DNA of 39,986 nucleotides from contig JAOTYB010000003.1 of the NCBI GenBank assembly GCA_029862065.1, forward strand, positions 1 to 39,986, written 5' to 3'. Source of the DNA: Acidimicrobiia bacterium. GTDB taxonomy: Bacteria > Actinomycetota > Acidimicrobiia > Spongiisociales > SHLN01. This document shows, piece after piece, positions 19,958 through 36,540 of the stretch; the first letter of the stretch is position 1; every line of letters begins with the position of its first letter. The translations under genes were made by a program, and so were the position numbers. The notes under the pieces are model-generated. The model was given only the letters and a program-made list of their open reading frames with translations, ran no database searches and had not been told where the DNA came from.

Positions 19958-20103
19958 GAACCAGCTCTCCCACACCGCCAAGCGTCCGGGATCCAACCGT
20001 CACCTCTCGACCGAAATCTGCCAACTGGTGAGCAGTGTTTCGCCAACCCTCTTACAATCGGCGTGGGCATCAAGGAAGCGGAGTACATGCCGAAATTGTT
20101 CCT

Positions 20104-22227
20104 ATGAGAACTCACCTAGCCGCGCGCGCTGGGCGCTGGCTCGGCATCGGGCTTGCTCTGTCGTTGGTGCTGCTCCCGGCTCCGGCATCGGCCGCCGACC
20201 CGAGCGAGCCAACCGAGCCCACGTTCACCTTCACAGGTGGCGGGTACGGCCACGGCACCGGCATGAGCCAGTACGGCGCCCAGGGTCAGGCACTGGAAGG
20301 ACGCAGTTGGCAAACCATCCTCAGCACCTACTTCACGGGGGTGGACTTCGCCCTGCTTCGCACCAGCCCGGCCCCCGGTCAGATCGGAGATGAGGGCCCG
20401 TTGTGGGTGGGACTCGGACAGGACCTCACCCACCAGGAAATCCGCATCTGGCCGATCGCCGAAAACCCCACCGCGGTAACCGTGACCCGCGGCGCCGAGA
20501 GCATCGCCGTCCTCCCCGGTCCCGACAACATCCTCACGTTCGACTTCACGCCCTCCGGCTGCACCTTCAGCGTGGCGGGCGTCAGCTGGCCGGCCGGCGC
20601 CTGCCACTTCGACATGGAGTGGGACGGCTGGGCCGAATCCCCCACAGTCGCCCTCGACACGACCCTCACCGACTTCGACCCCGAGTGCGATCGGTCCGGC
20701 GAACGCTGCTACTCGCGGGGCAGCATGAAGATCCGCCCCAATGTTGCCGTTGGAGACACCCCGAGCGGGTTCCACCTGGTGGTGAACGTCGACATGGAGG
20801 ACTACCTCTACGGGCTGTTAGAGGTCCCGTACAGCTGGCACCCCCAAGCCCTGGCGGCTCAGGCAGTGGCCGGACGCTCCTACGCCGCCAACAAGCAAGC
20901 ACTGCGAGGCTCCCCCGAGGAGAAGACCATCCGCCAGGAGCTGTGCTGGTGCGAGTTGTACGACTCGACTGTCGATCAGGTGTACGGAGGCTGGGGTCGC
21001 GGCGTGCCGGCCTGGCTGGACGCCGTCGACGCAACCGCCGGAATCGTCCTCTATCACCCGGCCGTGACGGCTCCGTCGTTCCATCCGCGGCCCGGCCAGC
21101 CGGTGGCAGTCCCGACGTTCTATTCCTCCTCCACCTTCGGCCACACCGAAGATTCGGGAGTCGCCTTCGGCGGCTCATTCACCCCCAGCTACCTGGTCGG
21201 CGTCCCCGACCCATGGTCCACCCTCCCTGCAACCGGCAACCCCCTCGGCACCTGGGAGAAGGAAATCACTCGCACCCAGCTAGCCGGCATGGTGGGCCTC
21301 GACACGGTGGATCACGTAGCCGTCGTCTCCTGGTTGCGACAGGGCACCGCCTACCAGAGCGCCTATCAGCTGACCTTTTCCGGGACCAAGAACGGTGAGT
21401 CCGACACCGTTACCCGCTTTGCTCGGCAGCTCAGGACTCCTCTCGGCTTGTGGTCGATGCAGATAACCGGTGTCACAAAATTCGTGCCCGACGGCTGGGT
21501 CGATACCGGCGGAGGCTCAGATGCCCCGGACCAGATCGGCATGCACGACCCGCTCACCGGCCGGTGGCATATTCGCGATGCCGATGGCACCGTCCGCCCC
21601 GCCTTCTACTACGGGGACCCAGGCGACATCCCCCTGACCTGCGATTGGAACTTCGACGGGGTGAGCACCGTCGGCCTCTACCGTCCCACCGCCGGCTTCA
21701 TGCATCTGCGCAACAGCAACGACCTGGGGGTGGCCGATCTCAGCTTCTACTTCGGCATTCCCGAGGACGTGCCAATCTGTGGCGACTGGAACGGAGACGG
21801 CTTCGAAACCATCGGCATCTACCGCCCGTCAACGCGTGTCTTCCACCTGGCCGACACCAACGAAACCAAGTTCGCCGACTACGACGTGGTGCTGGCCGCC
21901 CCCGGGTCGGTTCCGCTGGCCGGGGATTGGAACGGGAACGGCTTCGACACGATTGGCCTGTACGACCCGGTCAGCCGGGTCGTGTCCCTGACCAACTCGT
22001 TGAGCAACCCAACCATCGCCATCAGCTACGACTACAACACCATTCCCGAAGACAAGATCATCACCGGTGATTGGGACGGAGACGGTGACGACACCGTCGG
22101 GGTGTTTCGCCCGCCGGACCTGGCGTCCTATCTTCGAGACGACTTCGTGATGACATCCTCCAACCACCAGATAGAAGACTTCGGCGAGGCTCACTGGACG
22201 CCGGTAGCCGGAGTGTGGGCCGGCTAG
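20104..22227 (+). CDS. Secreted SpoIID/LytB-domain protein with C-terminal five-repeat module
   Basis: Signal peptide ending PAPASAA; GGYGHGTGMSQYGAQGQA; DYLYGLLEVPYSWHPQALAAQAVAGRSYA; repeats of F-Y-[YF]-G-x-P-x-D-x-P..GDWNGDGxxT from about 21530. Confidence 0.88.
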   Translation: MRTHLAARAGRWLGIGLALSLVLLPAPASAADPSEPTEPTFTFTGGGYGHGTGMSQYGAQGQALEGRSWQTILSTYFTGVDFALLRTSPAPGQIGDEGPLWVGLGQDLTHQEIRIWPIAENPTAVTVTRGAESIAVLPGPDNILTFDFTPSGCTFSVAGVSWPAGACHFDMEWDGWAESPTVALDTTLTDFDPECDRSGERCYSRGSMKIRPNVAVGDTPSGFHLVVNVDMEDYLYGLLEVPYSWHPQALAAQAVAGRSYAANKQALRGSPEEKTIRQELCWCELYDSTVDQVYGGWGRGVPAWLDAVDATAGIVLYHPAVTAPSFHPRPGQPVAVPTFYSSSTFGHTEDSGVAFGGSFTPSYLVGVPDPWSTLPATGNPLGTWEKEITRTQLAGMVGLDTVDHVAVVSWLRQGTAYQSAYQLTFSGTKNGESDTVTRFARQLRTPLGLWSMQITGVTKFVPDGWVDTGGGSDAPDQIGMHDPLTGRWHIRDADGTVRPAFYYGDPGDIPLTCDWNFDGVSTVGLYRPTAGFMHLRNSNDLGVADLSFYFGIPEDVPICGDWNGDGFETIGIYRPSTRVFHLADTNETKFADYDVVLAAPGSVPLAGDWNGNGFDTIGLYDPVSRVVSLTNSLSNPTIAISYDYNTIPEDKIITGDWDGDGDDTVGVFRPPDLASYLRDDFVMTSSNHQIEDFGEAHWTPVAGVWAG

Positions 22228-22248: not shown

Positions 22249-23262
22249 ATGGATACCTCACTCGTCCTGGTCACCCACAACTCCGAAGCCCACATCGAAG
22301 CGTCCCTCGAAATCCTGCTCACCGACCCGCACGGCCCTGATGAGATCATCGTCGTCGACAACGCCTCGACCGACGCCACGATCGGCATCGTTGAGCGGAT
22401 GGGTGTCAAGCTCGTCACGCTCGATGAGAACCATGGCTTTCCCTATGGCTGCAACCTCGGGGCATCGCTCACCCGCGGGGAAGTCATTGCCTTCCTCAAC
22501 CCCGACACCGAGCCCAAGCCAGGATGGCTGCCGCCACTGGTAGCCGCCATCCAGCGCCCGGAGGTGGGAGCCGCCATGCCGGTGATGGACCTCACCTATG
22601 CACCCGACCACTGGTTCACCTCCGGCAGCGCCCTCACCTTTCTCGGCTTCGCCTGGTCTACCAACAGCGGCGACCCCATTCCCAATGGCCTGAGCGAGAT
22701 CGAAGTCCCGTTCGCCTCGGGGGCAGCCTGCGTCATGGACCGGGCACTGTTCGACCACCTTGGCGGGTTCCGCGATGAGTACTTCCTCTATCTCGAAGAC
22801 GTCGACCTCGGGTGGCGGATCCGGCTGATGGGCCTCAAGAGTGTTCAGGTTCCGGAGTCACGAGTGTCTCACGACTACGAGTTTGGACGGCATGAGCGCA
22901 AGATGTACTACCTGGAACGCAACCGCCTCCGCATGGTGTGGGCCAACTACCAGCCATCCACCCTGGCGCTCCTCGCCCCGGCTCTGATCCTGGTGGAGCT
23001 GGCGGTGGTGGCTGCCGCTATCCGGCATGGATGGATGCGGCAGAAAGTCCAGAGCTGGTGGGGGTTCTGGAAGCTGCGCTCGCTGTTGCATCAGGAGGCA
23101 TTGCGATCGCGTTCCATCCGGGAGGTCAGCGACGGCGAGATCCTCGCGTCAATGGATGCTTCCTTCGACGGAATCAATCAGTTCGAAATCCACCCGCTCG
23201 TCAGGTCCTTGAACCGCCTGGCCATTGGCTATCTCAAGCTGGTCCAACGCCTGGTTCGCTAG
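22249..23262 (+). CDS. Glycosyltransferase family 2 (rhamnosyltransferase-like)
   Basis: SLVLVTHNSEAHIEASLEILL; IIVVDNASTDATIG; FLNPDTEPKPGWL; FLYLEDVDLGWRIRLMG. Confidence 0.9.
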   Translation: MDTSLVLVTHNSEAHIEASLEILLTDPHGPDEIIVVDNASTDATIGIVERMGVKLVTLDENHGFPYGCNLGASLTRGEVIAFLNPDTEPKPGWLPPLVAAIQRPEVGAAMPVMDLTYAPDHWFTSGSALTFLGFAWSTNSGDPIPNGLSEIEVPFASGAACVMDRALFDHLGGFRDEYFLYLEDVDLGWRIRLMGLKSVQVPESRVSHDYEFGRHERKMYYLERNRLRMVWANYQPSTLALLAPALILVELAVVAAAIRHGWMRQKVQSWWGFWKLRSLLHQEALRSRSIREVSDGEILASMDASFDGINQFEIHPLVRSLNRLAIGYLKLVQRLVR

Positions 23263-24473
23263 TCCCAGGCTCCTGCCACCGGAGCCGAGCCGTTCGAACC
23301 GAACGCGACGATGACATCCTGTGCGCTCGGTTCATGACCGAGCAGCAGGTGGAACTCATCAGTGGCCGGGCGCAGATACCCGAGGGTGTCTGACCCATCG
23401 GCGTTCCAGTCGCCAACCACGATCTGATCGCCGGCCAGGATCTCGGTCCGTGGGAGTGCCAGGACGTTGCCCAATCGAGTTCCGCCGTCGGCCAGATACA
23501 CCATGCCGGTTGCGGGGCGGAATAGGCCGACGCTGTGATGGCCGTCGCCGAACCAGTCGCCGGCCAGTGGAACGTCGCCGACCTCGCCAAAGCGGATTTC
23601 GGCATCGGCAAACCCGTAGGAGTTGCTGTTGCGGAGATAGAAGGTCCGATCACTCGGTCGGTAGATGCCGATGGTCTCAAGCCCATCCCCATCCCAATCG
23701 CCACAGAGGGGGATGTCCTCGGGGATCCCGTAGAAGATGGCGACATCGGCAACTCCGAAGTCGTTGCTGTTGCGCAGGTAGAGATACCCGCTCGCGGCGC
23801 GGTACAGACCGACCGTGGTGTCACCGTCTCCATCCCAGTCGCAGGTAACCGGGACGTCGGACGGGACGCCGTAGTAGAAGCTCGACGGGGAGCCGTACAG
23901 CGCCCAGGTGCCGCGGGCGGGGTCGTGCAGGCCGACCCGGTCGGCGCCAGGCGGGAACCGGTAATCGTCGCTCTCGGCGGCGCCGGATAGCCCCTCCGGG
24001 CCACGCATGAACACGACGGTGACGAACATCGAGCCGTCCTCGCGGATCACCACTCCGACGCCCGCATAGTTGGAGTTGCCGACCACGTTGGCCCGGTGGA
24101 CGTCTGATTCCCAGAAGGCCCGATCCAGCCCGCCGACGTCGTAACCCACGCCAACATTCTCGCCAAGGGCGTACCAGTTGGTCGTGACGCTTCCCAGGGC
24201 CGGGTTGTGGCAGATTCGGTCACCGTTCGGACAGTGCCCCTGGGACTGAAACAGGCTGTGGTCGCGGGCGTCGTCCACCAGATCCCAGTAGGGGGCGAGC
24301 GGCGCCAGGCTGGCCTCGGCCCGGCGCTGGTTGATCAATCGCAGGAACTCAGATTCGGCCCAGGCCTCATTGGTGCCGGCGGCTCCGGCCGGCAGGCTCA
24401 CGGCAGACAGCACCATCAACACGGCCGTCATGAGGATGATCATCCGCCGAACTAACACCGGGGGGCCTAGCAC
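23259..24473 (-). CDS. Secreted CAP/SCP-domain protein with C-terminal five-repeat module
   Basis: LRLINQRRAEASLAPLAP; ALGENVGVGY; HRANVVGNSNYAGVGV (CAP motifs); repeats FYYGVPSDVPVTCDWDGDGDTT. Start may be an internal Met (24443 or 24431). Confidence 0.87.
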   Translation of the reverse strand: MLGPPVLVRRMIILMTAVLMVLSAVSLPAGAAGTNEAWAESEFLRLINQRRAEASLAPLAPYWDLVDDARDHSLFQSQGHCPNGDRICHNPALGSVTTNWYALGENVGVGYDVGGLDRAFWESDVHRANVVGNSNYAGVGVVIREDGSMFVTVVFMRGPEGLSGAAESDDYRFPPGADRVGLHDPARGTWALYGSPSSFYYGVPSDVPVTCDWDGDGDTTVGLYRAASGYLYLRNSNDFGVADVAIFYGIPEDIPLCGDWDGDGLETIGIYRPSDRTFYLRNSNSYGFADAEIRFGEVGDVPLAGDWFGDGHHSVGLFRPATGMVYLADGGTRLGNVLALPRTEILAGDQIVVGDWNADGSDTLGYLRPATDEFHLLLGHEPSAQDVIVAFGSNGSAPVAGAWD

Positions 24474-24880: not shown

Positions 24881-24930
24881 GGTAGCCGGTTAGCCGGTAG
24901 CTGGTAGCCGGTAGCTGGCTAGCGAACAGC
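24881..24930. repeat. Degenerate heptanucleotide repeat (GGTAGCC/GGTAGCT) running into the 3' end of the GH26-like gene
   Basis: GGTAGCC GGTTAGCC GGTAGCT GGTAGCC GGTAGCT GGCTAGC GAACAGC. Confidence 0.8.
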
Positions 24931-26664
24931 TAACGCATCTACGAACCCTGACTCCACAACGTCGAGGGTGTAATCGGCGGGTCCGACTGTGTTGGTCATT
25001 CGGAAGTAGACCTTGTCGGTTGACGACCGGTAGACGGCAACGGTGTCGAACCCGTCGCCGTTCCAGTCGCCGGCCATGATCCGATCGGAGGGATCGCCGT
25101 AGAAGAACTCGAACTCGGCGATACCGGTGGTGAGGCTGTTGCGGAAGTAGACGAGCCCGGTCGACTCACGGTAGAGGCCGACGGTGGTGAAGCCATTCCC
25201 GTTGAAGTCACCGGTAAACGGACGGTCCCCGGCCAGCCCGAACCAGAAATCGAAGTCGGCGGGTCCGGTCCCCAGCGTGTTCTTGATGTAGACCCGGCCC
25301 GTCCGGTAGATGCCGAGCGTGTCGCAGCCGTCGTTGTTCCAGTCCCCGACAATCGGGATATCCCCGGGGTCGCCGTAATAGAACTCGACGTCGGCCACGC
25401 CCACGGTGTTGCTGTTACGCAGGTACACGAAGCCGTTCGACTCGCGGTACATACCGGGGGTGGCCGTACCGTCGCAGTTCCAGTCCCCCATGAGCGGCGT
25501 GTCCGCCGGGTTGCCGTAGTAGAAGGCGTTGATCGGAGCTCCGGCCTGGACTTCCGCCAGGAGGTTGATTTCGGATCCGGGGTCGACGAACGCCACCGTG
25601 TCGCACTCGAAGCCGTCGGGACAGGGACCGTCGAACTGGGCAAACGGGAGCGGGCCAGCCTGGAACCAGTTGGTCAGCGGGAACTGATAGCTGGTGGTCG
25701 CTCGCCGCATCCCATCCCGGTAGCCCCACCATCCCGGCTTGATCGGTGATGGATCGTCGTTGTCCCAGATCCACCAGTCGTAGGACGGCACGACGGCAGT
25801 CTGATCCTTGTTGAAGTAGATGAAGCCGACCAAGTTGGGATCCTCTTCGACGAAGGTGAACATGTCCAGCATCCACTGGTTCTTGTCGCCTCCGGCAGTG
25901 ACGCTCCCCACCTGGGCAAGCAGGAACGGCTTGCCGGACGCTCCGGGGATGGTGGCCCGAGCCTCATCGACGTAGGGACCGATCGCCCCGGCCGGGGTCA
26001 ACCATCCGTTATAAACATCGGGGCTGCCGAAGTTGTAGGTGCTGAAGGAAATGACATCCACGTAGGCGTCGCCCGGGTAGTAGTCGGCTATCCCGTAGGG
26101 CAGCTCCGACCATCCGTTGGGAGAGAACGCCCAGCGCACCTTGTCGGGATCGGTGACCGTCGACTCGACGATCGACCGGATCTTGATGTAGGCGGTCTTG
26201 AAGTTGGCCGGGTCCATGCCGTACGGAACCCAGTCGCCGTTCATCTCCTGCATGGGAGCGATGATGAGCGAACGACCCCCGCCATCATCCAGCCAATCCT
26301 TGACTTTGAGGGCCCAGGAAGTGATCTGAGCGTCGCGCGACGGGCCGGCGAGGGTGGCCGCCGTCTCGGTGAACTCGAGATTCGAGAACGGGGTGGCCCC
26401 GGCCGCCCACATGGCTTCGAGCTTGTTGACGGTCCAGACCTCGTCGATGTTGTGAAACAGGCCGCCGAAGGTGTGGTACTGCCAGGCGGCGCCTGAGATG
26501 GCATTCAGTTCGGCGGTGTAGTCGAGCGTCAGGGGATACAGGCCGCCATGCACGGTGCCCTCTCCGAAGATCATGTCCGGGGGATCAGCATGGGCGGACT
26601 GGCCCATGCCGGGCAGCGTCGCCAGGAGGGCGAGCGCAATGACGGAAATGGCAATCCTGCGCAT
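24919..26664 (-). CDS. Secreted GH26-like glycoside hydrolase/pseudoenzyme with C-terminal five-repeat module
   Basis: Signal peptide MRRIAISVIALALLATLPGMGQSAHA; APMQEMNGDWVPYG (acid/base Glu motif); GKPFLLAQVGSVTAGGDKNQW (nucleophile position Gln); five repeats with FYYGDPGDIPIVGDWNNDGCDT. Confidence 0.83.
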   Translation of the reverse strand: MRRIAISVIALALLATLPGMGQSAHADPPDMIFGEGTVHGGLYPLTLDYTAELNAISGAAWQYHTFGGLFHNIDEVWTVNKLEAMWAAGATPFSNLEFTETAATLAGPSRDAQITSWALKVKDWLDDGGGRSLIIAPMQEMNGDWVPYGMDPANFKTAYIKIRSIVESTVTDPDKVRWAFSPNGWSELPYGIADYYPGDAYVDVISFSTYNFGSPDVYNGWLTPAGAIGPYVDEARATIPGASGKPFLLAQVGSVTAGGDKNQWMLDMFTFVEEDPNLVGFIYFNKDQTAVVPSYDWWIWDNDDPSPIKPGWWGYRDGMRRATTSYQFPLTNWFQAGPLPFAQFDGPCPDGFECDTVAFVDPGSEINLLAEVQAGAPINAFYYGNPADTPLMGDWNCDGTATPGMYRESNGFVYLRNSNTVGVADVEFYYGDPGDIPIVGDWNNDGCDTLGIYRTGRVYIKNTLGTGPADFDFWFGLAGDRPFTGDFNGNGFTTVGLYRESTGLVYFRNSLTTGIAEFEFFYGDPSDRIMAGDWNGDGFDTVAVYRSSTDKVYFRMTNTVGPADYTLDVVESGFVDALAVR

Positions 26665-26701
26665 GCCCGAAACATCGGCAAGGCGCCGGAAACCTGAAGG
26701 G

Positions 26702-26707
26702 TATGCT
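26702..26707 (+). promoter_or_regulatory. Putative -10 element (TATGCT), 6 nt from GTG
   Basis: TATGCT-CCCGCG-GTG(26714). Confidence 0.5.
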
Positions 26708-26713
26708 CCCGCG

Positions 26714-27694
26714 GTGCCGCCCTCCGTGTCCATCCTGCTCCCGGTACTCAACGAGGCCGACTTCCTCGACCCATGCCTGGCCAGTCTGACCGCCCAGGAC
26801 TACCAAGGCTCAATCGAGATCGTGGTAGCCGACGGCGGATCAACCGACGGCACCCGGGAACGGCTTGAGGAGCTGCACCGGCTCGGCCGGGTCGTCCTAG
26901 TTGACAATCCCGACCGGCGTCAGTGGGCCGGCCTCAACCGGTCGGCGGAGGTTGCATCCGGAGAAATCCTGGTGCGGGTGGACGGGCACTCGACCTACGA
27001 GCCGGATTACGTGGGTTCCTCGGTAGCGGCTCTTTCCGAGTCGGCGGCGACGGCGGTTGGCGGACGGATGATCCCAGAGAGCGACAATCCGATCGGCAAG
27101 GCGATCAGCTCGGCCATGGCCAGCCCCTGGGCTGTCGGACCCGCCCGCTATCGACATCAGACTCACCGATCCGAGGTAGACACCGTGTACCTCGGAGCAT
27201 TCCGGGCCGATGATTTCACCCGGCTGGGCGGCTATCGGGATCTGCCGGGGGTGGCCGAAGACACCGACCTGTATTACCGATGGCGAAAACAGGGTGCCTC
27301 AATCGTCCTCGACCCCGCCATCCGTTCCCGCTATCGCCCTCGCGACAGCTGGGGCGATCTTGCCCGCCAGTACTACCTCTACGGATGGGGCAAGGCCGAC
27401 ATGGTCTATGCCAATCATGAGCTCCCCAGTTGGCGTCCCTTGGCACCCTTAGCCCTGGTGGTTGGATTGATCGGAGGCGGGGTGCTGGCCGGCTTCCTGA
27501 TGTGGTGGCCGCTGCTGTCTCTGGTGGCGGCCTGGGCTGCCGTTCTCGGATGGGTGGCGTTGGCGGCGGGCGAAGGGCTCATCCATCGCCTCCGCACCGG
27601 ATTGGCCACCGCCACCATGCAGCTGGCCTTTGGCGCAGGGCTGCTGGGAGGCCTCCTGCGAGGGCCGGGACCACGGCGGCACCTCCGCGGGTAG
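26714..27694 (+). CDS. Glycosyltransferase family 2, membrane-associated
   Basis: VSILLPVLNEADFLDPCLASL; VVADGGSTDGTRE; C-terminal TM segments. Start trimmed from 26555 to GTG 26714. Confidence 0.9.
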   Translation: MPPSVSILLPVLNEADFLDPCLASLTAQDYQGSIEIVVADGGSTDGTRERLEELHRLGRVVLVDNPDRRQWAGLNRSAEVASGEILVRVDGHSTYEPDYVGSSVAALSESAATAVGGRMIPESDNPIGKAISSAMASPWAVGPARYRHQTHRSEVDTVYLGAFRADDFTRLGGYRDLPGVAEDTDLYYRWRKQGASIVLDPAIRSRYRPRDSWGDLARQYYLYGWGKADMVYANHELPSWRPLAPLALVVGLIGGGVLAGFLMWWPLLSLVAAWAAVLGWVALAAGEGLIHRLRTGLATATMQLAFGAGLLGGLLRGPGPRRHLRG

Positions 27695-27709: not shown

Positions 27710-28855
27710 TCAAGAATGGGGCGTGTGATACCACCCGCGAACCCGCGAGCTCATGATCCGCACCGGCAGCCATGCCAATCCGAAAACCACCAGCAGCGGA
27801 TAGCGCCAGAGGTAGCGGGCGGGGATTCGGTCCCGAATAAGGAAGATGATCGGCGCCCCGACCTGCAAGCCGACGATGATCGCCCACACCCACCACGGCC
27901 ACAGCAGATCGGTGAAGACGGCGGCGACCGCCAGGGCGGCTGAGATGGCCACCATGAAGGTGCGGCCGGGTTGGCTCTGACGGATGACCAGGTCGACCAG
28001 TCCCCACGAGCGGCGCCGGGCGGCTTCGATCAGCAGCGAGCGCCGGTATGTGCGGGCCACCGAGCGCTTGCCCGACATCCACCTGGCCCGCTGCCGCATG
28101 GCGACACCGATAGACGCCGGCTTCTGGTCGTACACCTTCACCGTGTGCAGCCAGGCAATCCGGTGGCCGGACATCACCAGGCGGGCCGCTTGTTCAGAAT
28201 CTTCCGTCAGTGCTCCGTTGTCGGACTCGAGCACCCAGGTAGCGGTTGGAGCAAAGGCGGTGCCGGTGCCGCCGAGGTCGGGGGCCCAGCCGAGGTTGTG
28301 TCTCGCCAGCTGAACCATCCGGTTGCTCGACCAGTAGCTGAGCGCTGAGGCAGTGGTGAGCCAGGAGGCGTCAGGGTTGGAGGTGTCAACGTAGGCCTGG
28401 GCGGCGTCGTAACCATTGTCGAGCGCCGCCGCCACTCCATTGAGGAAGGTCGGATCAACCCGATTGTCGGCATCCAATATCACCAACGACTCGTCCGGTT
28501 CGAGCGGGGCTGCGGCCAGATACCAGGCGAGGGCGGCCCCTTTTCCGTCCGGACCATCGTGGCGTTCGATCACCTGGGCAGGCGGGACGACCACTGCGGT
28601 GTCGTCGGTGCAGCGATCGGCAATCACAACCACCCGAACCTTTTTGGACGGATAGTCCTGGGCAGCCAGGTCGGCGAGAAGCGACCCGATGACGACCGCC
28701 TCGTTGTGAGCCGGGATGACAACCCGCAGCCGGCGTCGTCCCGACCCACGTCGGATGTTGGCCTGATGAGGCAGTCCCCACAATGCAACAACCAAGTTGT
28801 AGGCAGGCAGCGCGGCAACGAGTACCTGGGAAACGAGGAGAAGGATGCGTAACAT
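27710..28855 (-). CDS. Membrane glycosyltransferase family 2 (processive type)
   Basis: RVVIPAHNEAVVIGSLLADL; VIADRCTDDT; ILDADNRVDPTFL; QRARWMSGK (QxxRW); N- and C-terminal TMs. Start trimmed to MLRILLLVSQ. Confidence 0.9.
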   Translation of the reverse strand: MLRILLLVSQVLVAALPAYNLVVALWGLPHQANIRRGSGRRRLRVVIPAHNEAVVIGSLLADLAAQDYPSKKVRVVVIADRCTDDTAVVVPPAQVIERHDGPDGKGAALAWYLAAAPLEPDESLVILDADNRVDPTFLNGVAAALDNGYDAAQAYVDTSNPDASWLTTASALSYWSSNRMVQLARHNLGWAPDLGGTGTAFAPTATWVLESDNGALTEDSEQAARLVMSGHRIAWLHTVKVYDQKPASIGVAMRQRARWMSGKRSVARTYRRSLLIEAARRRSWGLVDLVIRQSQPGRTFMVAISAALAVAAVFTDLLWPWWVWAIIVGLQVGAPIIFLIRDRIPARYLWRYPLLVVFGLAWLPVRIMSSRVRGWYHTPHS

Positions 28856-28884
28856 CGCAGCCCGCAGGCTACCCGGGATGCGCC

Positions 28885-29976
28885 ATGTCCAACTCACACT
28901 CAATCGTCGTCGCCCTCGGCACCCGCCCGGAGATCATCAAGCTGGCGCCGATCATCCGCCTGCTCGGCGAGCGGGCCCGGGTCGTCCATACCGGCCAGCA
29001 CTACGATCCCGGCCTGTCCAAGGTGTTCTTCGATGCGTTTGGCCTCCCCGAGCCCACCTATCGGCTTGAGATCGGCGGCAGCACCCGGGCTACCCAATTG
29101 GGTGAGGCCACTCGCCTGATCGGCGAGCATCTCGCCAGTGAGCCCGCGGCGGCGGTAGTCGTGCAGGGCGACACCAACACCACTGCCGGTGCCGCCTTGG
29201 CCGCCAATGCCACCGAGACGCCGCTGGTGCACATTGAGGCCGGCCTCCGGTCGTTCGACCGGGCCATGCCCGAAGAGCACAACCGGATCGTCACCGACAT
29301 GCTGTCCGATCTGTGCTGCGCTCCGACTCAGGTGAGTGAGAAGAACTTGCTCGACAGCGGTATACCTGCCGACCGCATCGCCGTCACCGGCAACACGGTG
29401 GTGGAGGCCGTCCGTACCCTGCTGCCCGAAGACCGGTCCGCTTACCTCGAAGGTCATGGTGTCACCGCCAACGGTTATCTGCTGGCAACCTTCCACCGGC
29501 CGGAAAACGTTGATGACCCGGAGACGCTCGGGACCATCCTGTCAGAGTTGGCCGCCCTCGAGCTGCCCACCATCCTGCCAATCCACCCCCGAACTCGCGC
29601 CCGCATCGAGTCGTTCGGCCTGGGCGACCAGCTCGACCGCCTCATGGTCGTCGAGCCGATGGGCTTCCAGGAGTTCCTGGCGCTGTCGGCAGAGTGTGCG
29701 GCGCTCGTGAGCGACTCGGGAGGCGTCCAGGAGGAGGTCAGCGTGCTGAAAAGGCCGGTGCTGGTGGTGCGCCGCTCCACCGAACGGCCTGAGGTGCTGG
29801 GCACGTTTGCCGAGCGAGTTCTGCCGGGGCCCGAGATCAGCCGGATCGTTGGGCAGTGGATCGCCGACCTGCCGGCACTGCACGGCCGGCTAGCAGCCAT
29901 TCCCAGCCCCTACGGCGACGGGGATGCGGCCGAACTGTCGGTGACAGCGATCAACCAGCTGGTTGGGACCTCGTAG
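28885..29976 (+). CDS. wecB: UDP-N-acetylglucosamine 2-epimerase (non-hydrolysing)
   Basis: VALGTRPEIIKLAPIIRLL; VVHTGQHYD; VVQGDTNTTAGAALAA; HIEAGLRSFDRAMPEEHNRIVTD; SDSGGVQEE. Confidence 0.94.
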   Translation: MSNSHSIVVALGTRPEIIKLAPIIRLLGERARVVHTGQHYDPGLSKVFFDAFGLPEPTYRLEIGGSTRATQLGEATRLIGEHLASEPAAAVVVQGDTNTTAGAALAANATETPLVHIEAGLRSFDRAMPEEHNRIVTDMLSDLCCAPTQVSEKNLLDSGIPADRIAVTGNTVVEAVRTLLPEDRSAYLEGHGVTANGYLLATFHRPENVDDPETLGTILSELAALELPTILPIHPRTRARIESFGLGDQLDRLMVVEPMGFQEFLALSAECAALVSDSGGVQEEVSVLKRPVLVVRRSTERPEVLGTFAERVLPGPEISRIVGQWIADLPALHGRLAAIPSPYGDGDAAELSVTAINQLVGTS

Positions 29977-30016: not shown

Positions 30017-30068
30017 TAAGGGAGGCGACAATCGTCAGGCGCGCACCATCATCCAGAGACGGCCGTTG

Positions 30069-31637
30069 ATGCGGTTCGCCTATGTCTCCTCCATCGTCCC
30101 CCGCCGTCGGGAGCTGGCATCTGGCCCCATCGACGCCGAGTGGGTCGTCGATGAACGCGGCTCTAACGAGGTGGTCGTCTTCGTCGATTACGAGAGTGAC
30201 GGCACCGACCTACTGCATGAGGCGGGAGTCGAATTCCATGTGGCCCCCAAGCGCACCGTCATCATGGCGGGCGACCAGGCCGAAACCTCCGAAGAGTTAC
30301 AGGCCCGCTTGCTCATGCAGCGGCATGCCGAGGCCCCGTTCGACGCCATCATTTACGACTCGGCGCACGCCACCGACTGGGCCTGGTACCAGCCGCAGCT
30401 AGCGGCCATCCCCCGTGGTGTCGCGCTCGGCGCAGGTCCGGCTCGCGACGTGCGCCTTGTCACGTCGGTCCCGGACCTGTTCGCCCGCCACGGTCGCACG
30501 CTGTGGGCGATGACGGGAACCCTGGCGTCCGCCGACTTCTTGATCAGTGACGTAGGGGCCGATGCCTACGGGATCGACCCGACCCGCCTGCCGCCCCGCT
30601 TTTCGCTCAACCCGCTGCCGACCGCCGTCGCCCCGAGCGGACCGGCCGGGCTGGTGGCCCTGGTGGCATTGAGCGAGAGCCCGACCGGGTTGGCGACGGT
30701 CGTTGAGCGGGGATTGGCCCAAGTGACGACCGACGAGAACACGGTGATGGCAGTCATCCACCCCGATGTGGCAGTCGGGAGCGAAACTACCCGCGACATC
30801 GTGTTCGCCAGCCTGCCGGCCAGCCTGCGCGGGCGGGTTCGGCTGGCGGAGCCGTCGAGCGACGGAGTGGCCGATGGGCTGCTGGCTCAAGCCGACGTCG
30901 TGGTGGCGGCACGGGTCTCAGACCTGGCCGTACGGGCGGTGTCGGACGCGGCCGCCAAGGTCGGCAGCGTGGTGCTGGAGGGAACCGGGTTTGAGGCGCC
31001 CCGCTTCGGTGACGGAGCACTCCGCAAGGCCGAGCATCCACACCCGGTGCTGATAGCCGTGGATGGTCCGCTGGATGCGCTCATTCCGGTAGTCGACGAG
31101 ATCATCGGGGAGGCCGCGGCGGTGGTCCTGCATACCGACAACGGCTCCTGGTCGGCCCGCCGATTGTGGAAGCTGCCGGGCTCGGCCCGCGGAGGTCTGC
31201 TGCTGGTGTGCGATCCGCTGCCCTATCACGGCGAGCCCGACCCGAGCAAGCCGGCCTTCGATCTCATCGGATTCGATGCCGCTTCCTGGCCGTCAATTCG
31301 GCGGATCATCCAGAGCTCCCAGACCCTGCACGACGTGGTGGAGATGGCAGCCAGTATCGCCAACGCCCATCGCGTGAACTTGCTGGCGTTGCCGGTGATG
31401 GGCATTGCCCACGGCCGCCTCAAATCCCAGCCTGAGGCTCCGGCCTGGATCACCGATTCGGGCTCGCTCCCCCAGCCGGTCCTGGGCACCGTCGACTCCG
31501 ACGGATCAGATGCTCCCGAAGTATCCACCGCCGGGGTCAAGGAGTGGGCGGAGTCGCATGGCTTCCGCGATCGAATTCGCCTCGCCCTTCCCTGGAAGTG
31601 GGGCATTCTCAACCGGGCGATGCGCGACCGGTGGTGA
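30069..31637 (+). CDS. Large uncharacterised protein of the polysaccharide locus, possibly GT-B-like
   Basis: 523-aa ORF; alternating alpha/beta-looking sequence without a recognised catalytic signature; stop overlaps next GTG. Confidence 0.65.
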   Translation: MRFAYVSSIVPRRRELASGPIDAEWVVDERGSNEVVVFVDYESDGTDLLHEAGVEFHVAPKRTVIMAGDQAETSEELQARLLMQRHAEAPFDAIIYDSAHATDWAWYQPQLAAIPRGVALGAGPARDVRLVTSVPDLFARHGRTLWAMTGTLASADFLISDVGADAYGIDPTRLPPRFSLNPLPTAVAPSGPAGLVALVALSESPTGLATVVERGLAQVTTDENTVMAVIHPDVAVGSETTRDIVFASLPASLRGRVRLAEPSSDGVADGLLAQADVVVAARVSDLAVRAVSDAAAKVGSVVLEGTGFEAPRFGDGALRKAEHPHPVLIAVDGPLDALIPVVDEIIGEAAAVVLHTDNGSWSARRLWKLPGSARGGLLLVCDPLPYHGEPDPSKPAFDLIGFDAASWPSIRRIIQSSQTLHDVVEMAASIANAHRVNLLALPVMGIAHGRLKSQPEAPAWITDSGSLPQPVLGTVDSDGSDAPEVSTAGVKEWAESHGFRDRIRLALPWKWGILNRAMRDRW

Positions 31638-33460
31638 CCGAATGGCCGACGGTCACCGTCATCATCGGTGGTGATGGTTCGACAGCGGAGGCCCGCCACA
31701 CAGCTGCGTCCCTCCGGCACAGTGTCTACCCGGGGGAGCTCCAGATCCTCAGCGGAGCCGAGGACGAGCTCGGCTCGCCGACGGAGATCGCCAACGATCA
31801 CGTAGGGGAAGCCAAAGGTGCATATATCTGGATGGTTCCCCCCGGCACCACCCTCGACCCCCACTGCCTTCACCGGCTGGTGATGCGTGCCGAGGCCGAC
31901 CCGGCGACGGTTGCCGTCGCCCTGCAGTGGCGGGCAAGTGACGGGTCGGTACTCGAGGCCGGCAGCCACCTGCTGGCCTCGGACGAAATCGGCCCGCTGT
32001 TCCACGGCGGTTCGCTGCCTGAGTGGCTGACCGGCGGACCCTATCGAACTCGGGTCAGCTCACAACCGTCGCTGCTCATCCGGGCGCAGGACTTCTTCGT
32101 CGCCGGTGGCTTCAATCTCGAGCTGGACGGGTCCCCCTATCAGGCCGCTTACCTGGCCCTCGCCCTGACGGCCGGTGGAAGCCGCATCGAGGTCGAGACC
32201 CGGGCCATTGCCTTCGCTCCCCCGGCCCAGCCGGTCAGCGAAAGCGAGCTGGTGCGGGGACGGAACGTCCTCCAGCGAGACTTCTCCGACGGCCTCAACC
32301 AGCTCCACTATCAGTCCTCTATCGACGCCGACCTCAGCGTGCTCCTCGGTGACCAACGCGGCACCCGCACGCTGTGGGCTGCCTCCCACTTGCCAGATCC
32401 CAACCGTTCGGGCGCTGATGCTCGCCACCTCGAGATGATCCAGGCGCTCGTGGCCGGTGAGGATGAGGTCGTTGTGTGGGCGACCCACACCGACGGATCG
32501 GACAGCCGGGCACTCGACAACCTGGGAATCCGGTGGGTGGCCCAACCGCACGTCCGCCGATGGGACCTGCGACAGAGCGACAAGAAGTTCCCCTGGCTGC
32601 GCGAGCTGGTTCGCCAGCTTCATTGGGATCACCTGGTGATCGCCGATCCAAACCTGGTGGCCAGGGTGGCCCCGCTTATCCGCGAGCATTCCCCAGACAC
32701 CGCCATCATTGCCGACCTGGGGAGTGTCCGCCACTCGGCCGCCCATGCTCCGGCGTCGGGGACCGCGGCCGGCTTCGACCTCCCCGGCCTCTCGGAGGTC
32801 GATGCCGTCGTGGCCGCCACTGGTCCCGACCAGGCGGCACTCGCCGGCGACCACCCTGCCTCGTTCGGGTTCTCCGCGCTCGGCCACGGTCAACCGGTAC
32901 CGGCCAACCGGGACGGCGGCCTTTTGTTCGTCGGCAATTTGCTGCATCGTCCGAATGCTGAGGCGATTGATTGGTGGACCGACTCCATCGCCGGACGGGT
33001 CGAGGCTCGCATGGGGCGACGAGTTCCGCTGCGGGTGGTTGGCAATGGCTCCGAGCTCTACCGCCACAACTGGAACCATCCCGCCAAGGTCGAGATCGGT
33101 GGATGGTGCCCGGACCTCAGTTTCGAGCTGAGCGACAGCCGGGTCTTTCTCGTGCCGCTCCTCTATGCGACTGGAACAGGCGGGCGCATCGCTACTGCCC
33201 TCGCCCACGGGGTCCCCACCGTGGTGTCTGTTCCCGCCGCCGCCATGCTGCCTGCAGAGCTGCGGGACCTGGTCAAGGTGGGAGAGACGGCCGACGAGTT
33301 GGCGGACCACGTCGCCACCCTCATGAGCGACGACGGGGCGTGGGGAGAGGCCTGTCGACGTTTGGCCGCCTGGGACGCACCCTTGTTCCGGCAACAACAG
33401 CAAGACGCGTTCGCCCGATGGGCAGCCACGCTTGAGACCTCGGTGCCCGCTTCGGCCTAG
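31634..33460 (+). CDS. Composite glycosyltransferase-like protein (degenerate GT2-like N-terminus + GT4/GT-B-like C-terminus)
   Basis: VTVIIGGDGSTAEARHTAASL; C-terminal LFVGNLLHRPNAEAIDWW, LRVVGNGSELY, VEIGGWCPDL, FLVPLLYATGTGGRIATALAHGVPTVVS. Confidence 0.78.
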   Translation: MTEWPTVTVIIGGDGSTAEARHTAASLRHSVYPGELQILSGAEDELGSPTEIANDHVGEAKGAYIWMVPPGTTLDPHCLHRLVMRAEADPATVAVALQWRASDGSVLEAGSHLLASDEIGPLFHGGSLPEWLTGGPYRTRVSSQPSLLIRAQDFFVAGGFNLELDGSPYQAAYLALALTAGGSRIEVETRAIAFAPPAQPVSESELVRGRNVLQRDFSDGLNQLHYQSSIDADLSVLLGDQRGTRTLWAASHLPDPNRSGADARHLEMIQALVAGEDEVVVWATHTDGSDSRALDNLGIRWVAQPHVRRWDLRQSDKKFPWLRELVRQLHWDHLVIADPNLVARVAPLIREHSPDTAIIADLGSVRHSAAHAPASGTAAGFDLPGLSEVDAVVAATGPDQAALAGDHPASFGFSALGHGQPVPANRDGGLLFVGNLLHRPNAEAIDWWTDSIAGRVEARMGRRVPLRVVGNGSELYRHNWNHPAKVEIGGWCPDLSFELSDSRVFLVPLLYATGTGGRIATALAHGVPTVVSVPAAAMLPAELRDLVKVGETADELADHVATLMSDDGAWGEACRRLAAWDAPLFRQQQQDAFARWAATLETSVPASA

Positions 33461-33468
33461 GCCGAAGC
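33449..33468. repeat. 20-bp perfect palindrome at the junction of convergent stop codons
   Basis: GCTTCGGCCTAGGCCGAAGC; central CTAG holds the TAG stop of both genes. Confidence 0.95.
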
Positions 33469-34197
33469 CTGATAGCCGTCGAACACGTCGCCGGCAGGAC
33501 CGAGCATCTTGATGTGTCCATGGTCTAGCCACAACGCCCGGGTGCTTACCTCCCGCAAGAGAGGGATGGAGTGAGAGACGATGACCACGGCCGCTCCCCC
33601 GGCAATGAGCTGCTTCATCCGGGCCTGTGACTTCTCCCGGAACGCCTTGTCACCCACCGACAACACCTCGTCGACTACCAGCACCTCGGGCTCGATATCG
33701 GTAGCGACGCTGAAAGCCAGACGGGCCAACATGCCGGAAGAGAAGGTGCGAGTCGGTACGTCAACGAACTCCTCAACCCCCGCCCATTCAACGATCTCGT
33801 CCACCCGATCCCGCAGCAGATTGGGATCCCGGCCCAACAGGGCGCCGTAGAGGACGATGTTTTCCCGAGCGGTTAGCTCCGGGTTCATGCCAGACCCGAG
33901 CTCAATCATGGGAGCCACCTGCCCCCGGACGATCACCCGCCCACCGGTGGGCGGCAACACCCGGGCTATGACTTTCATCAGTGTCGACTTGCCCGCTCCG
34001 TTCGGGCCGACCACACCGAAGATCTCCCCCTTGTTGACCGAGAAGCTCACTCCATCGAGGGCCTGAATCGACTCCATAGTCCGCTGCCTGCGCAGCGAAC
34101 GGAAGGTGGCTTCCTTGAGGGTGCCGACCTTTGATCGATCGAGGCGGTACCGAAGCGACACATCCCGCACTTCAATGGGCGGAGGGGCACCCGTCAC
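33457..34197 (-). CDS. wzt: Polysaccharide ABC transporter ATP-binding protein (Wzt/TagH-like, no C-terminal carbohydrate-binding domain)
   Basis: GVVGPNGAGKST Walker A; FSSGMLARLAFSVATDIEPEVLVVDEVLSVGD; start trimmed to GTG overlapping the permease stop. Confidence 0.9.
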   Translation of the reverse strand: MTGAPPPIEVRDVSLRYRLDRSKVGTLKEATFRSLRRQRTMESIQALDGVSFSVNKGEIFGVVGPNGAGKSTLMKVIARVLPPTGGRVIVRGQVAPMIELGSGMNPELTARENIVLYGALLGRDPNLLRDRVDEIVEWAGVEEFVDVPTRTFSSGMLARLAFSVATDIEPEVLVVDEVLSVGDKAFREKSQARMKQLIAGGAAVVIVSHSIPLLREVSTRALWLDHGHIKMLGPAGDVFDGYQASA

Positions 34198-35036
34198 AGT
34201 CGCGACACCACCCGGCGCCAGTTGCGAGAGAACACGTACACCCCGAAGATCAACGCCAGCACTGCCGAGCCGAACATCATCCCGATGGTCCACGCCGGGG
34301 GCGTCGGGCCCCCATACACCCACCACCGGAAGATAACCAGGAACGAATACACCGGATTGGCCTTCACGACATACTCGGCGGCCGTGCCTTCAACGAAGTC
34401 GATGGTCCAGAAGGTAGGAATGAGGTAATTGAATAGCTGCACGACCACCCGGGAGATATCCAGCACATCGCGGAAGTACACGGCGGCCGAGGCGATCACC
34501 AGCCCCGCTCCCGTGATGAGCATCAGCAACAGAACCAGCGGGATCGGAATCAGAATCACCGTCCACGGAATCCCCGGGCCAAGCACGAGAACCATGATGA
34601 AGAGCGGCAACAGGCTGAGGACGAAGTGGGTGGCGGCCGCCACCGCCGTGGCGAGAGAAAAGATCTCGGGCGGTATGTACATCTTGATGAGGATGTTGCG
34701 GCTGTTGACGATGGCCGAACCGGCGGCGATAACCCCCTGTGAGAAGTAGGTGGAGATGAGGATGCCGGCCGTCAGATACACCACATACGGTTCCTCCATA
34801 ACGCCGAATCGTCCGAAGATGTTGGAGAACACCACCCACAGCACGGCGATGGTGAGCATCGGGTTGAGAATGGTCCACCACACTCCCAACACCGATCGCT
34901 TGTAGCGAACGGTGAGGTCACGGGTCACCAGCAGCCGGATGAGCCCCCGGTATCTCCAGAAGTTCTGGAACTCAGATATCAGGGGCCGGCGGGCAAGGTC
35001 GGAGTCGTAATAGACCGTTGATTGGGCTGACGTCAC
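34194..35036 (-). CDS. wzm: Polysaccharide ABC transporter permease (Wzm/ABC-2 type)
   Basis: RDLTVRYKRSVLGVWWTILNPMLTIAVLWVVFSNIF and several TMs; GTG at 35036 preferred. Confidence 0.9.
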   Translation of the reverse strand: MTSAQSTVYYDSDLARRPLISEFQNFWRYRGLIRLLVTRDLTVRYKRSVLGVWWTILNPMLTIAVLWVVFSNIFGRFGVMEEPYVVYLTAGILISTYFSQGVIAAGSAIVNSRNILIKMYIPPEIFSLATAVAAATHFVLSLLPLFIMVLVLGPGIPWTVILIPIPLVLLLMLITGAGLVIASAAVYFRDVLDISRVVVQLFNYLIPTFWTIDFVEGTAAEYVVKANPVYSFLVIFRWWVYGGPTPPAWTIGMMFGSAVLALIFGVYVFSRNWRRVVSRL

Positions 35037-35102
35037 GGGACGGAATGGTACCCGGGGCCGGGTTATCGGGCGGGGATTGGCCTTGAGACGCCGGGGGTGG
35101 TC

Positions 35103-35108
35103 TACGCT
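35103..35108 (+). promoter_or_regulatory. Putative -10 element (TACGCT), 7 nt from GTG
   Basis: TACGCT-GCAATCC-GTG(35116). Confidence 0.45.
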
Positions 35109-35115
35109 GCAATCC

Positions 35116-36540
35116 GTGTACCACCCGTCCGACTCCCGCCGCGGATTCTGGCTGGCCACTTTGGCCGTCCTCCCCCTATTCGTATGGTGGCTCGGTTGGT
35201 TCCCGGGATTCCTCTCTCTCGACTCGGTCGACCAGCTCACCCAGGTCGAGACCGGTGAGTATGAGAACGACCATCCGGCCGCTCACACGCTCACCTTCTG
35301 GCTGATCACCCGCTTGTGGGACGACCCGGGCGCAATCAGCCTCGTCCAGATCGTTCTGTTGGCCCTGGTGCTGGCTCTCGTCTGCAAACGCACCATCGAG
35401 CTCGGGGTTCCGCTACCGCTGGCAGTCGGGGCAGCCTGGCTGGTCTCCCTCCTACCGGCGGTTGGCCCCACCGCCATCACCCTCTGGAAAGACGTGGCCT
35501 TCACGATCGCATTCGTGTGGGTCCTGGCCGAGCTACTAGCCCTGGCCGCCCAACACACCGACTATTGGGCGAACCGGAGCAATCCGCTCCGCCTGGGAGC
35601 AGCCCTTTCGTTGCTGTGGTTGTTCCGCCACAACGGAATCCTCACCGTCCTGGGAGTCATGGCCGTCCTGGCCTGGGCGTATCGACACGACCTCAAGGGA
35701 GTGGCGATCACCATGGTGTCCCTCCTGGCAATCGTGGCGTTCGTCCAGGGCCCGGTGCTGTGGCTGTTCTCGGTCGATCGCGGCCAACCGGTAGCCGCCG
35801 AGGTGCTGATCCCGGTCGTGGCATCGTCCTTCTTCCACGAGCCCGGCAACTTCAGCCAGGACGAGCGGGAGTTGCTGGCATCCATCGCTCCCCTCGACGT
35901 GTGGCGAGACAGCTACGACTGCGATAGCGCCAACCCCCTGCTCTTCGATCCGCAGATGAATATCGACACGATCCGGGCCGACCCGGCCCCCTTCTTCCGT
36001 CTCGGCCTCCGGACCACATTCCGGGACCTCGATACCAGCCTCGGGTTGCTGTGGTGTCGGTCGTCGTTCCTGTTTCAGCCGGGGCAACCCACGTCGACCT
36101 ACCTCGAACGGCCGCCGTTTCAGATTCACGAGAACGATTTGGGCATCGCCAGAGATCCGGTGTGGTCGGCGGCCTACGATTTCACGTTCGACATATTCGC
36201 CGCCACCGAGTCGAGGTCGTGGTTGTGGCTGACGTGGCGGCCGGCGGTTGTTACCTGGCTGACCATCGCCACCTTCGGCTTGCTGGCCTGGCGGCGCCAA
36301 TGGGGCCTCCTGGTGCCGGGGAGCTTGATCGGCATCCACCTGGTCAATGTGGCGACCTCTTCCCTCAACCACGAGTTCCGCTTCGCCTTCCCGCTGTACG
36401 TGGCCGGTGTGATGTGCCTTCCCTTGCTCTGGTTCGCGGTCTTCCCTGAGCCGCTACCGCGCTCGGTCAACCGGTTCGTATCGCACCGTCGGTCGTTCTC
36501 GAACCCGGATGTCACTGCCATCCGGGGGCGGGAGCGGTAG
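35116..36540 (+). CDS. Polytopic membrane protein, possible GT-C-type glycosyltransferase
   Basis: Many TM helices; GFLSLDSVDQLTQVETGEYENDHPAAHTLTFWLITRLW resembles the acidic first-loop region of GT-C-like proteins. Confidence 0.7.
   Translation: MYHPSDSRRGFWLATLAVLPLFVWWLGWFPGFLSLDSVDQLTQVETGEYENDHPAAHTLTFWLITRLWDDPGAISLVQIVLLALVLALVCKRTIELGVPLPLAVGAAWLVSLLPAVGPTAITLWKDVAFTIAFVWVLAELLALAAQHTDYWANRSNPLRLGAALSLLWLFRHNGILTVLGVMAVLAWAYRHDLKGVAITMVSLLAIVAFVQGPVLWLFSVDRGQPVAAEVLIPVVASSFFHEPGNFSQDERELLASIAPLDVWRDSYDCDSANPLLFDPQMNIDTIRADPAPFFRLGLRTTFRDLDTSLGLLWCRSSFLFQPGQPTSTYLERPPFQIHENDLGIARDPVWSAAYDFTFDIFAATESRSWLWLTWRPAVVTWLTIATFGLLAWRRQWGLLVPGSLIGIHLVNVATSSLNHEFRFAFPLYVAGVMCLPLLWFAVFPEPLPRSVNRFVSHRRSFSNPDVTAIRGRER

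Follow-up and report, generated by a model that had tools for sequence, protein, structure and literature searches.

The window analysed here, a stretch of 39,986 nucleotides, derives from an Acidimicrobiia-like MAG that is 79% complete and carries a single copy of a GH26-like gene. This gene lies on the minus strand, with a likely ATG start at 26664 and a stop codon that ends at 24919. Its product consists of a signal peptide, a GH26 domain of ~300 residues and ~235 residues of GDWNGDG repeats. The original prediction had placed a GH26-like domain at 25600-26664; these coordinates hold for the domain, but the protein does not end there and runs on to 24919 with the repeat module. The features of the gene are:

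24919..26664, minus strand: whole gene for a secreted GH26-fold protein of 581 aa (ORF, ATG at 26664, signal peptide MRRIAISVIALALLATLPGMGQSAHA)
26587..26664, minus strand: predicted signal peptide, judged by eye from the sequence
25660..26568, minus strand: GH26-fold TIM-barrel domain, residues 33-335 (Pfam, phmmer, clade profile, model, Foldseek)
26257..26259, minus strand: Ala136 in place of the GH26 -1 subsite Arg (alignment; subsite as in PMC6556568)
26245..26247, minus strand: Glu140, acid/base position, kept within APMQEMNGDW (alignment columns)
26041..26043, minus strand: Ser208 in place of the Asp of most GH26 (DGYN; alignment)
25912..25914, minus strand: Gln251 (CAG), nucleophile position (codon, phmmer, clade alignment, clade profile)
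24922..25635, minus strand: C-terminal GDWNGDG-repeat module, predicted beta-propeller (sequence repeats, structure prediction)

Judged by fold and sequence, the protein is a descendant of GH26. It matches the Pfam family GH26 (PF02156) above the cut-off, with an E value of 2e-7; NCBIfam gave no match to it. The Pfam match ends at the DGYN-like region, leaving the nucleophile column outside this test, and other evidence was therefore needed for Gln251. A phmmer alignment to the Clostridium thermocellum GH26 lichenase CtLic26A (E ~1e-10) spans that column and places Gln251 opposite Glu in the wild-type chains and opposite Gln in chain 2cip. A profile made from 16 members of the clade described below matches CtLic26A in the same register, with E ~1e-35. 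The best-scoring PDB chain for this profile is 2cip, the Gln form of CtLic26A, whose entry title refers to a Michaelis complex; from the chain sequences we infer that 2cip is an engineered nucleophile Glu-to-Gln mutant. In an AlphaFold2 model of the barrel, which is weak (mean pLDDT 59, pTM 0.67, 5 alignment rows), strand 7 holds Gln251 and strand 4 is followed directly by Glu140; the top PDB matches of this model in Foldseek are CtLic26A structures. The protein thus has the TIM barrel of clan GH-A together with GH26 sequence kinship, as seen by Pfam, clade profile and Foldseek, and it has the acid/base Glu after strand 4; the nucleophile Glu at strand 7 is lacking. The central claim of the original prediction, a Gln at the GH26 nucleophile position with the acid/base motif intact, is borne out by the sequence, the clade profile, the fold prediction and the orthologues: Gln251 is encoded by CAG (25914-25912), one base from GAG, Glu140 aligns to its GH26 counterpart, no other Glu falls at the nucleophile position in the alignment to CtLic26A structures, and no clade orthologue has Glu there.

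CtLic26A (2bv9, 2bvd, 2cip and others) is the top match by both sequence and fold. It shares with the clade the fold, the strand positions of acid/base and nucleophile, and the YPGD..VD, W and K-P/W motifs; where the lichenase has LRPLHE, DGYN and the nucleophile Glu, the clade has IAP(L/M)QE, SxYN and Gln. The GH26 beta-mannanases (CjMan26A, BoMan26A/B) resemble the clade in fold, Pfam GH26 assignment, +1 Gly and Trp and -1 Tyr, whereas their -1 Arg, His and Phe and their nucleophile Glu are all replaced in it (PMC6556568).

The search for relatives took in 59 near genomes, 296 of the class, 397 of the phylum and 301 of Chloroflexota, with additional sequences from one scan of GTDB contigs; the genomes are mostly MAGs and cover two phyla. 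Profile scores split sharply between close members (E <= ~1e-104) and all others (E ~1e-49 or worse). The nucleophile column holds Gln in each of the 26 distinct close members whose sequence extends that far (the core) and in 6 more distant ones. Together these form a main clade of 32 domains (31 from Actinomycetota, one from Chloroflexota), with Gln in 32/32; among the remaining GH26 domains of the tree, 58 carry Glu and one very divergent row carries Val. Glu140 is retained by 31 of the main-clade domains, including 26/26 core members, and the exception is one distant member. In a tree built with the diagnostic columns removed, the 32 domains fall on one side of a branch with a bootstrap value of 99 and an SH-aLRT value of 55. 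No fewer than three Glu/Gln changes are forced by the tree, and two Gln cases from Chloroflexota, L096 and the L111 second barrel, lie beyond the main clade. By this reconstruction the Glu-to-Gln change has arisen at least three times and was once fixed across a large clade. The 34 Gln domains use CAG 22 times and CAA 12 times, and since both codons are used it would be the amino acid that selection holds. Within the genus, dN/dS is ~0.15-0.33, as estimated by a simple method and at high dS.

L111 (355-2532, minus strand; Chloroflexota) encodes tandem GH26 barrels, the first with LRFAHE and Glu, the second with LQFAHE and Gln, apparently an active/inactive pair in one chain. In the distant relative L019 (235-2622, plus strand; 796 aa), neither the acid/base nor the nucleophile is retained.

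The Gln is accompanied by other changes in the cleft, which we compared using the GH26 subsite roles described in PMC6556568. The -1 Arg, four residues before the acid/base, is present in 45/58 Glu-type domains and is Ala in every core member (26/26). Gln-Glu replaces His-Glu in 25/26 through loss of the -1 His, and the HE motif of GH26 is thus absent, as it is from GH26 xylanases too (PMC6556568). The -1 Phe/Tyr has become Thr or Val in 24/26 core members, and the +1 Asp is Ser in 26/26, a residue also found there in 14/58 Glu-type domains. Kept in the clade are Glu140, Asn142, the +1 Trp145, Asn183, Tyr196 and Tyr210, while Trp185 and Trp300 are each conserved in 22/26 members, unlike in the Glu-type domains. 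Another Glu serving as nucleophile was considered and rejected, as the alignment columns of the clade contain no invariant Asp/Glu beyond those general in GH26. As judged from the residues changed, the residues kept and the within-genus dN/dS, the cleft is under selection, yet rebuilt.

The partner module of the barrel varies by member: GDWNGDG repeats, CWB2, SLH or PEGA. Three CWB2 domains (E 1e-38 to 1e-53) are found in L035, L038 and L055, SLH in L042, L045 and L016, and PEGA in L034; L023 has no module. The window protein is not of the CWB2/SLH wall-anchored type and carries GDWNGDG repeats instead. Its C-terminal module is predicted to be a beta-propeller (pLDDT 69), with Streptomyces UmbA4 as top fold match (E 6e-8); GlcNAc-binding lectins of fungi and the heads of integrins match its fold weakly. 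A sequence search of the repeats against the PDB gave no match. The exported SpoIID (20035-22227, plus strand), CAP (23259-24473, minus strand) and GH26-like (24919-26664, minus strand) proteins of the window differ in their N-terminal domains but have one C-terminal repeat module in common, which looks like a shared surface anchor. At L120 (G027) the neighbours carry CWB2, as does the GH26-like protein there. At L117 and L121 (G048 and G029, respectively) the GH26-like gene adjoins arrays of several genes whose products all have GDWNGDG repeats.

Around the gene, the window contains several glycosyltransferases and the following features:

20035..22227, plus strand: exported protein with a SpoIID domain and C-terminal repeats as in the GH26-like protein (Pfam, repeat comparison)
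23259..24473, minus strand: exported protein with a CAP domain and C-terminal repeats as in the GH26-like protein (Pfam, repeat comparison)
26636..27694, plus strand: divergent family 2 glycosyltransferase (GT2), start approximate (domain match)
28783..29976, plus strand: UDP-GlcNAc 2-epimerase (domain match)
33457..35240, minus strand: ABC polysaccharide-exporter-like pair, ABC_tran and ABC2_membrane (domain match)

The order SpoIID, GT2, CAP, GH26-like, GT2, epimerase is conserved within the genus. That the gene lies in a polysaccharide region, as first proposed, is supported for this window by the glycosyltransferases, the epimerase and the exporter-like pair. Glycosyltransferase-rich surroundings were rejected as a mark of the Gln clade: in counts based on ORFs called by a simple script, GT2 makes up 14/101 neighbour proteins of Gln-type genes and 12/85 of Glu-type GH26 genes. 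Because GT2 is equally frequent in this control, the neighbourhood is moderate evidence only, and the ligand cannot be assigned from context alone. In counts uncorrected for relatedness, the only proteins that seem overrepresented near Gln-type genes are UDP-GlcNAc 2-epimerase (7/101 Gln-type vs 2/85 Glu-type neighbour proteins), Wzy ligase and GDP-mannose dehydratase. M23 peptidases occur near relatives.

In clan GH-A, double displacement needs the nucleophile. Since this residue and the neighbouring -1 residues are gone, GH26 double displacement by the window protein is very unlikely. We think it probable, if with considerable reserve, that the protein is a cell-surface, glycan-binding member of the GH26 fold, incapable of GH26 retaining hydrolysis. 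The secreted protein would sit at the cell surface, where the GH26-fold domain, having lost the nucleophile and the surrounding -1 residues, would bind a glycan in the former substrate cleft and not hydrolyse it in the canonical way. The most likely ligand would be a polymer of the wall or capsule that the neighbouring genes produce, held by Glu140, Asn142, Trp145, Asn183, Tyr196, Tyr210 and Gln251 together with the clade-specific Trp185 and Trp300. The C-terminal module (a propeller here; CWB2, SLH or PEGA in relatives) would fix the protein to the wall, a role that for the propeller is presumed. Several observations speak for such a binder: Gln throughout the main clade vs Glu in the 58 others, with -1 and +1 residues changed alongside; the swapping of surface modules and the presence of the same module on exported neighbours; and the propeller fold matches to UmbA4 and, weakly, to fungal GlcNAc-binding lectins. 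Loss of a catalytic residue that is kept lost across orthologues is also a feature of glycosidase-derived lectins. Chitinase-like lectins and heparanase-2 are glycosidase folds in which a glycan-binding groove has outlived catalysis, although they belong to other families and are animal proteins. Two observations point the other way. No core member has replaced the acid/base Glu, a constancy beyond the need of a pure binder, and the nucleophile site shows exact conservation of Gln rather than mere loss of Glu, which could mean a catalytic role.

These same two invariant residues, Glu140 and Gln251, are what commends the main rival, a single-acid enzyme, which we regard as possible but rather unlikely. 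Here Glu140 would be the acid/base, the substrate would supply the nucleophile (its C6-OH, the mode of lytic transglycosylases, or else a 2-acetamido group), and Gln251 would orient it. Lytic transglycosylases characteristically form a 1,6-anhydro product using a single acid residue. The task of such an enzyme would be trimming or remodelling, either of peptidoglycan or of a wall polymer of aminosugars, with which the SpoIID, CAP and UDP-GlcNAc 2-epimerase neighbours in the window and the M23 peptidases near relatives are consistent. There is also a precedent in Cwp19 of Clostridioides difficile, a CWB2-anchored TIM barrel in a wall-polymer locus in which Gly replaces the Glu of the nucleophile position (PMC5765458) and which is nevertheless an active lytic transglycosylase (PMC6016235). 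It resembles the clade as a surface-anchored barrel with that Glu missing, and CWB2 is found in some clade relatives. It is, however, a precedent only: Cwp19 belongs to another family, GHL10, has Gly and not Gln, and its activity has been measured, while the clade is known from sequence. Against single-acid chemistry, no Asp/Asn/Tyr pair of the kind usual in substrate-assisted enzymes was identified, and the -1 subsite is largely rebuilt, with Arg, His and Phe/Tyr lost, whereas a catalytic site more often keeps these. That a GH26-fold lineage exchanged double displacement for transglycosylation or substrate-assisted cleavage of its own wall polymer, with Gln standing in the nucleophile's place in a positioning role, we consider unlikely.

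We give little credence to a decaying gene, in which the barrel would be functionless and only the surface module would matter. The distant relative L019 without either catalytic residue would fit decay, but this reading was already disfavoured by purifying selection, a wide distribution, cleft residues that are invariant against a mean column identity of 45%, and no stop codons in any close member. Little credence can likewise be given to a protein that is still a retaining or inverting hydrolase, acting through some other carboxylate or through Gln251 deamidated to Glu. The fold and acid/base are conserved and deamidation of Gln is known in engineered mutants, but the clade has no specific invariant Asp/Glu column and the -1 Arg is lost as well. 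A sequencing or assembly error, CAG being one base from GAG, or a private point mutation can be dismissed, since orthologues from independent genomes all have Gln, encoded by CAA as well as CAG.

The glycan-binding pseudoenzyme of the original prediction thus stands as regards the loss of the nucleophile; its role as a binder is plausible and our first choice, with the retained Glu140 and the activity of Cwp19 without a Glu at the nucleophile position counting against it. Our search of the literature, with most subscription journals outside its reach, found no paper on a GH26 pseudoenzyme. At the family level these proteins would be annotated as GH26 glycosidases, an activity that the conserved sites argue against; because the nucleophile Glu is lacking, we would file them as a GH26-derived nucleophile-less group rather than as GH26 hydrolases. 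The clade appears to be a natural counterpart of the laboratory nucleophile mutant, clade-wide in many Actinomycetota and with several kinds of wall anchor. With it one can readily ask which way a GH-A barrel turns once its nucleophile is lost, to lectin or to new enzyme, and it gives access to the surface polysaccharides of Acidimicrobiia, which have been little studied.

A few further ORFs deserve mention. The polysaccharide cluster of the window includes a genus-conserved ORF of 523 aa (30066-31637, plus strand) with no Pfam match at E 0.01. Two long ORFs overlap at 31544-33460 (plus strand) and 32060-33532 (minus strand); the former has a glycosyltransferase match, and the latter, with no Pfam match, is probably spurious. 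At L145 and L146, Glu-type GH26 genes adjoin a UDP-GlcNAc 2-epimerase and also a very long protein (~1200 aa) that resembles a glycosyltransferase of the window.
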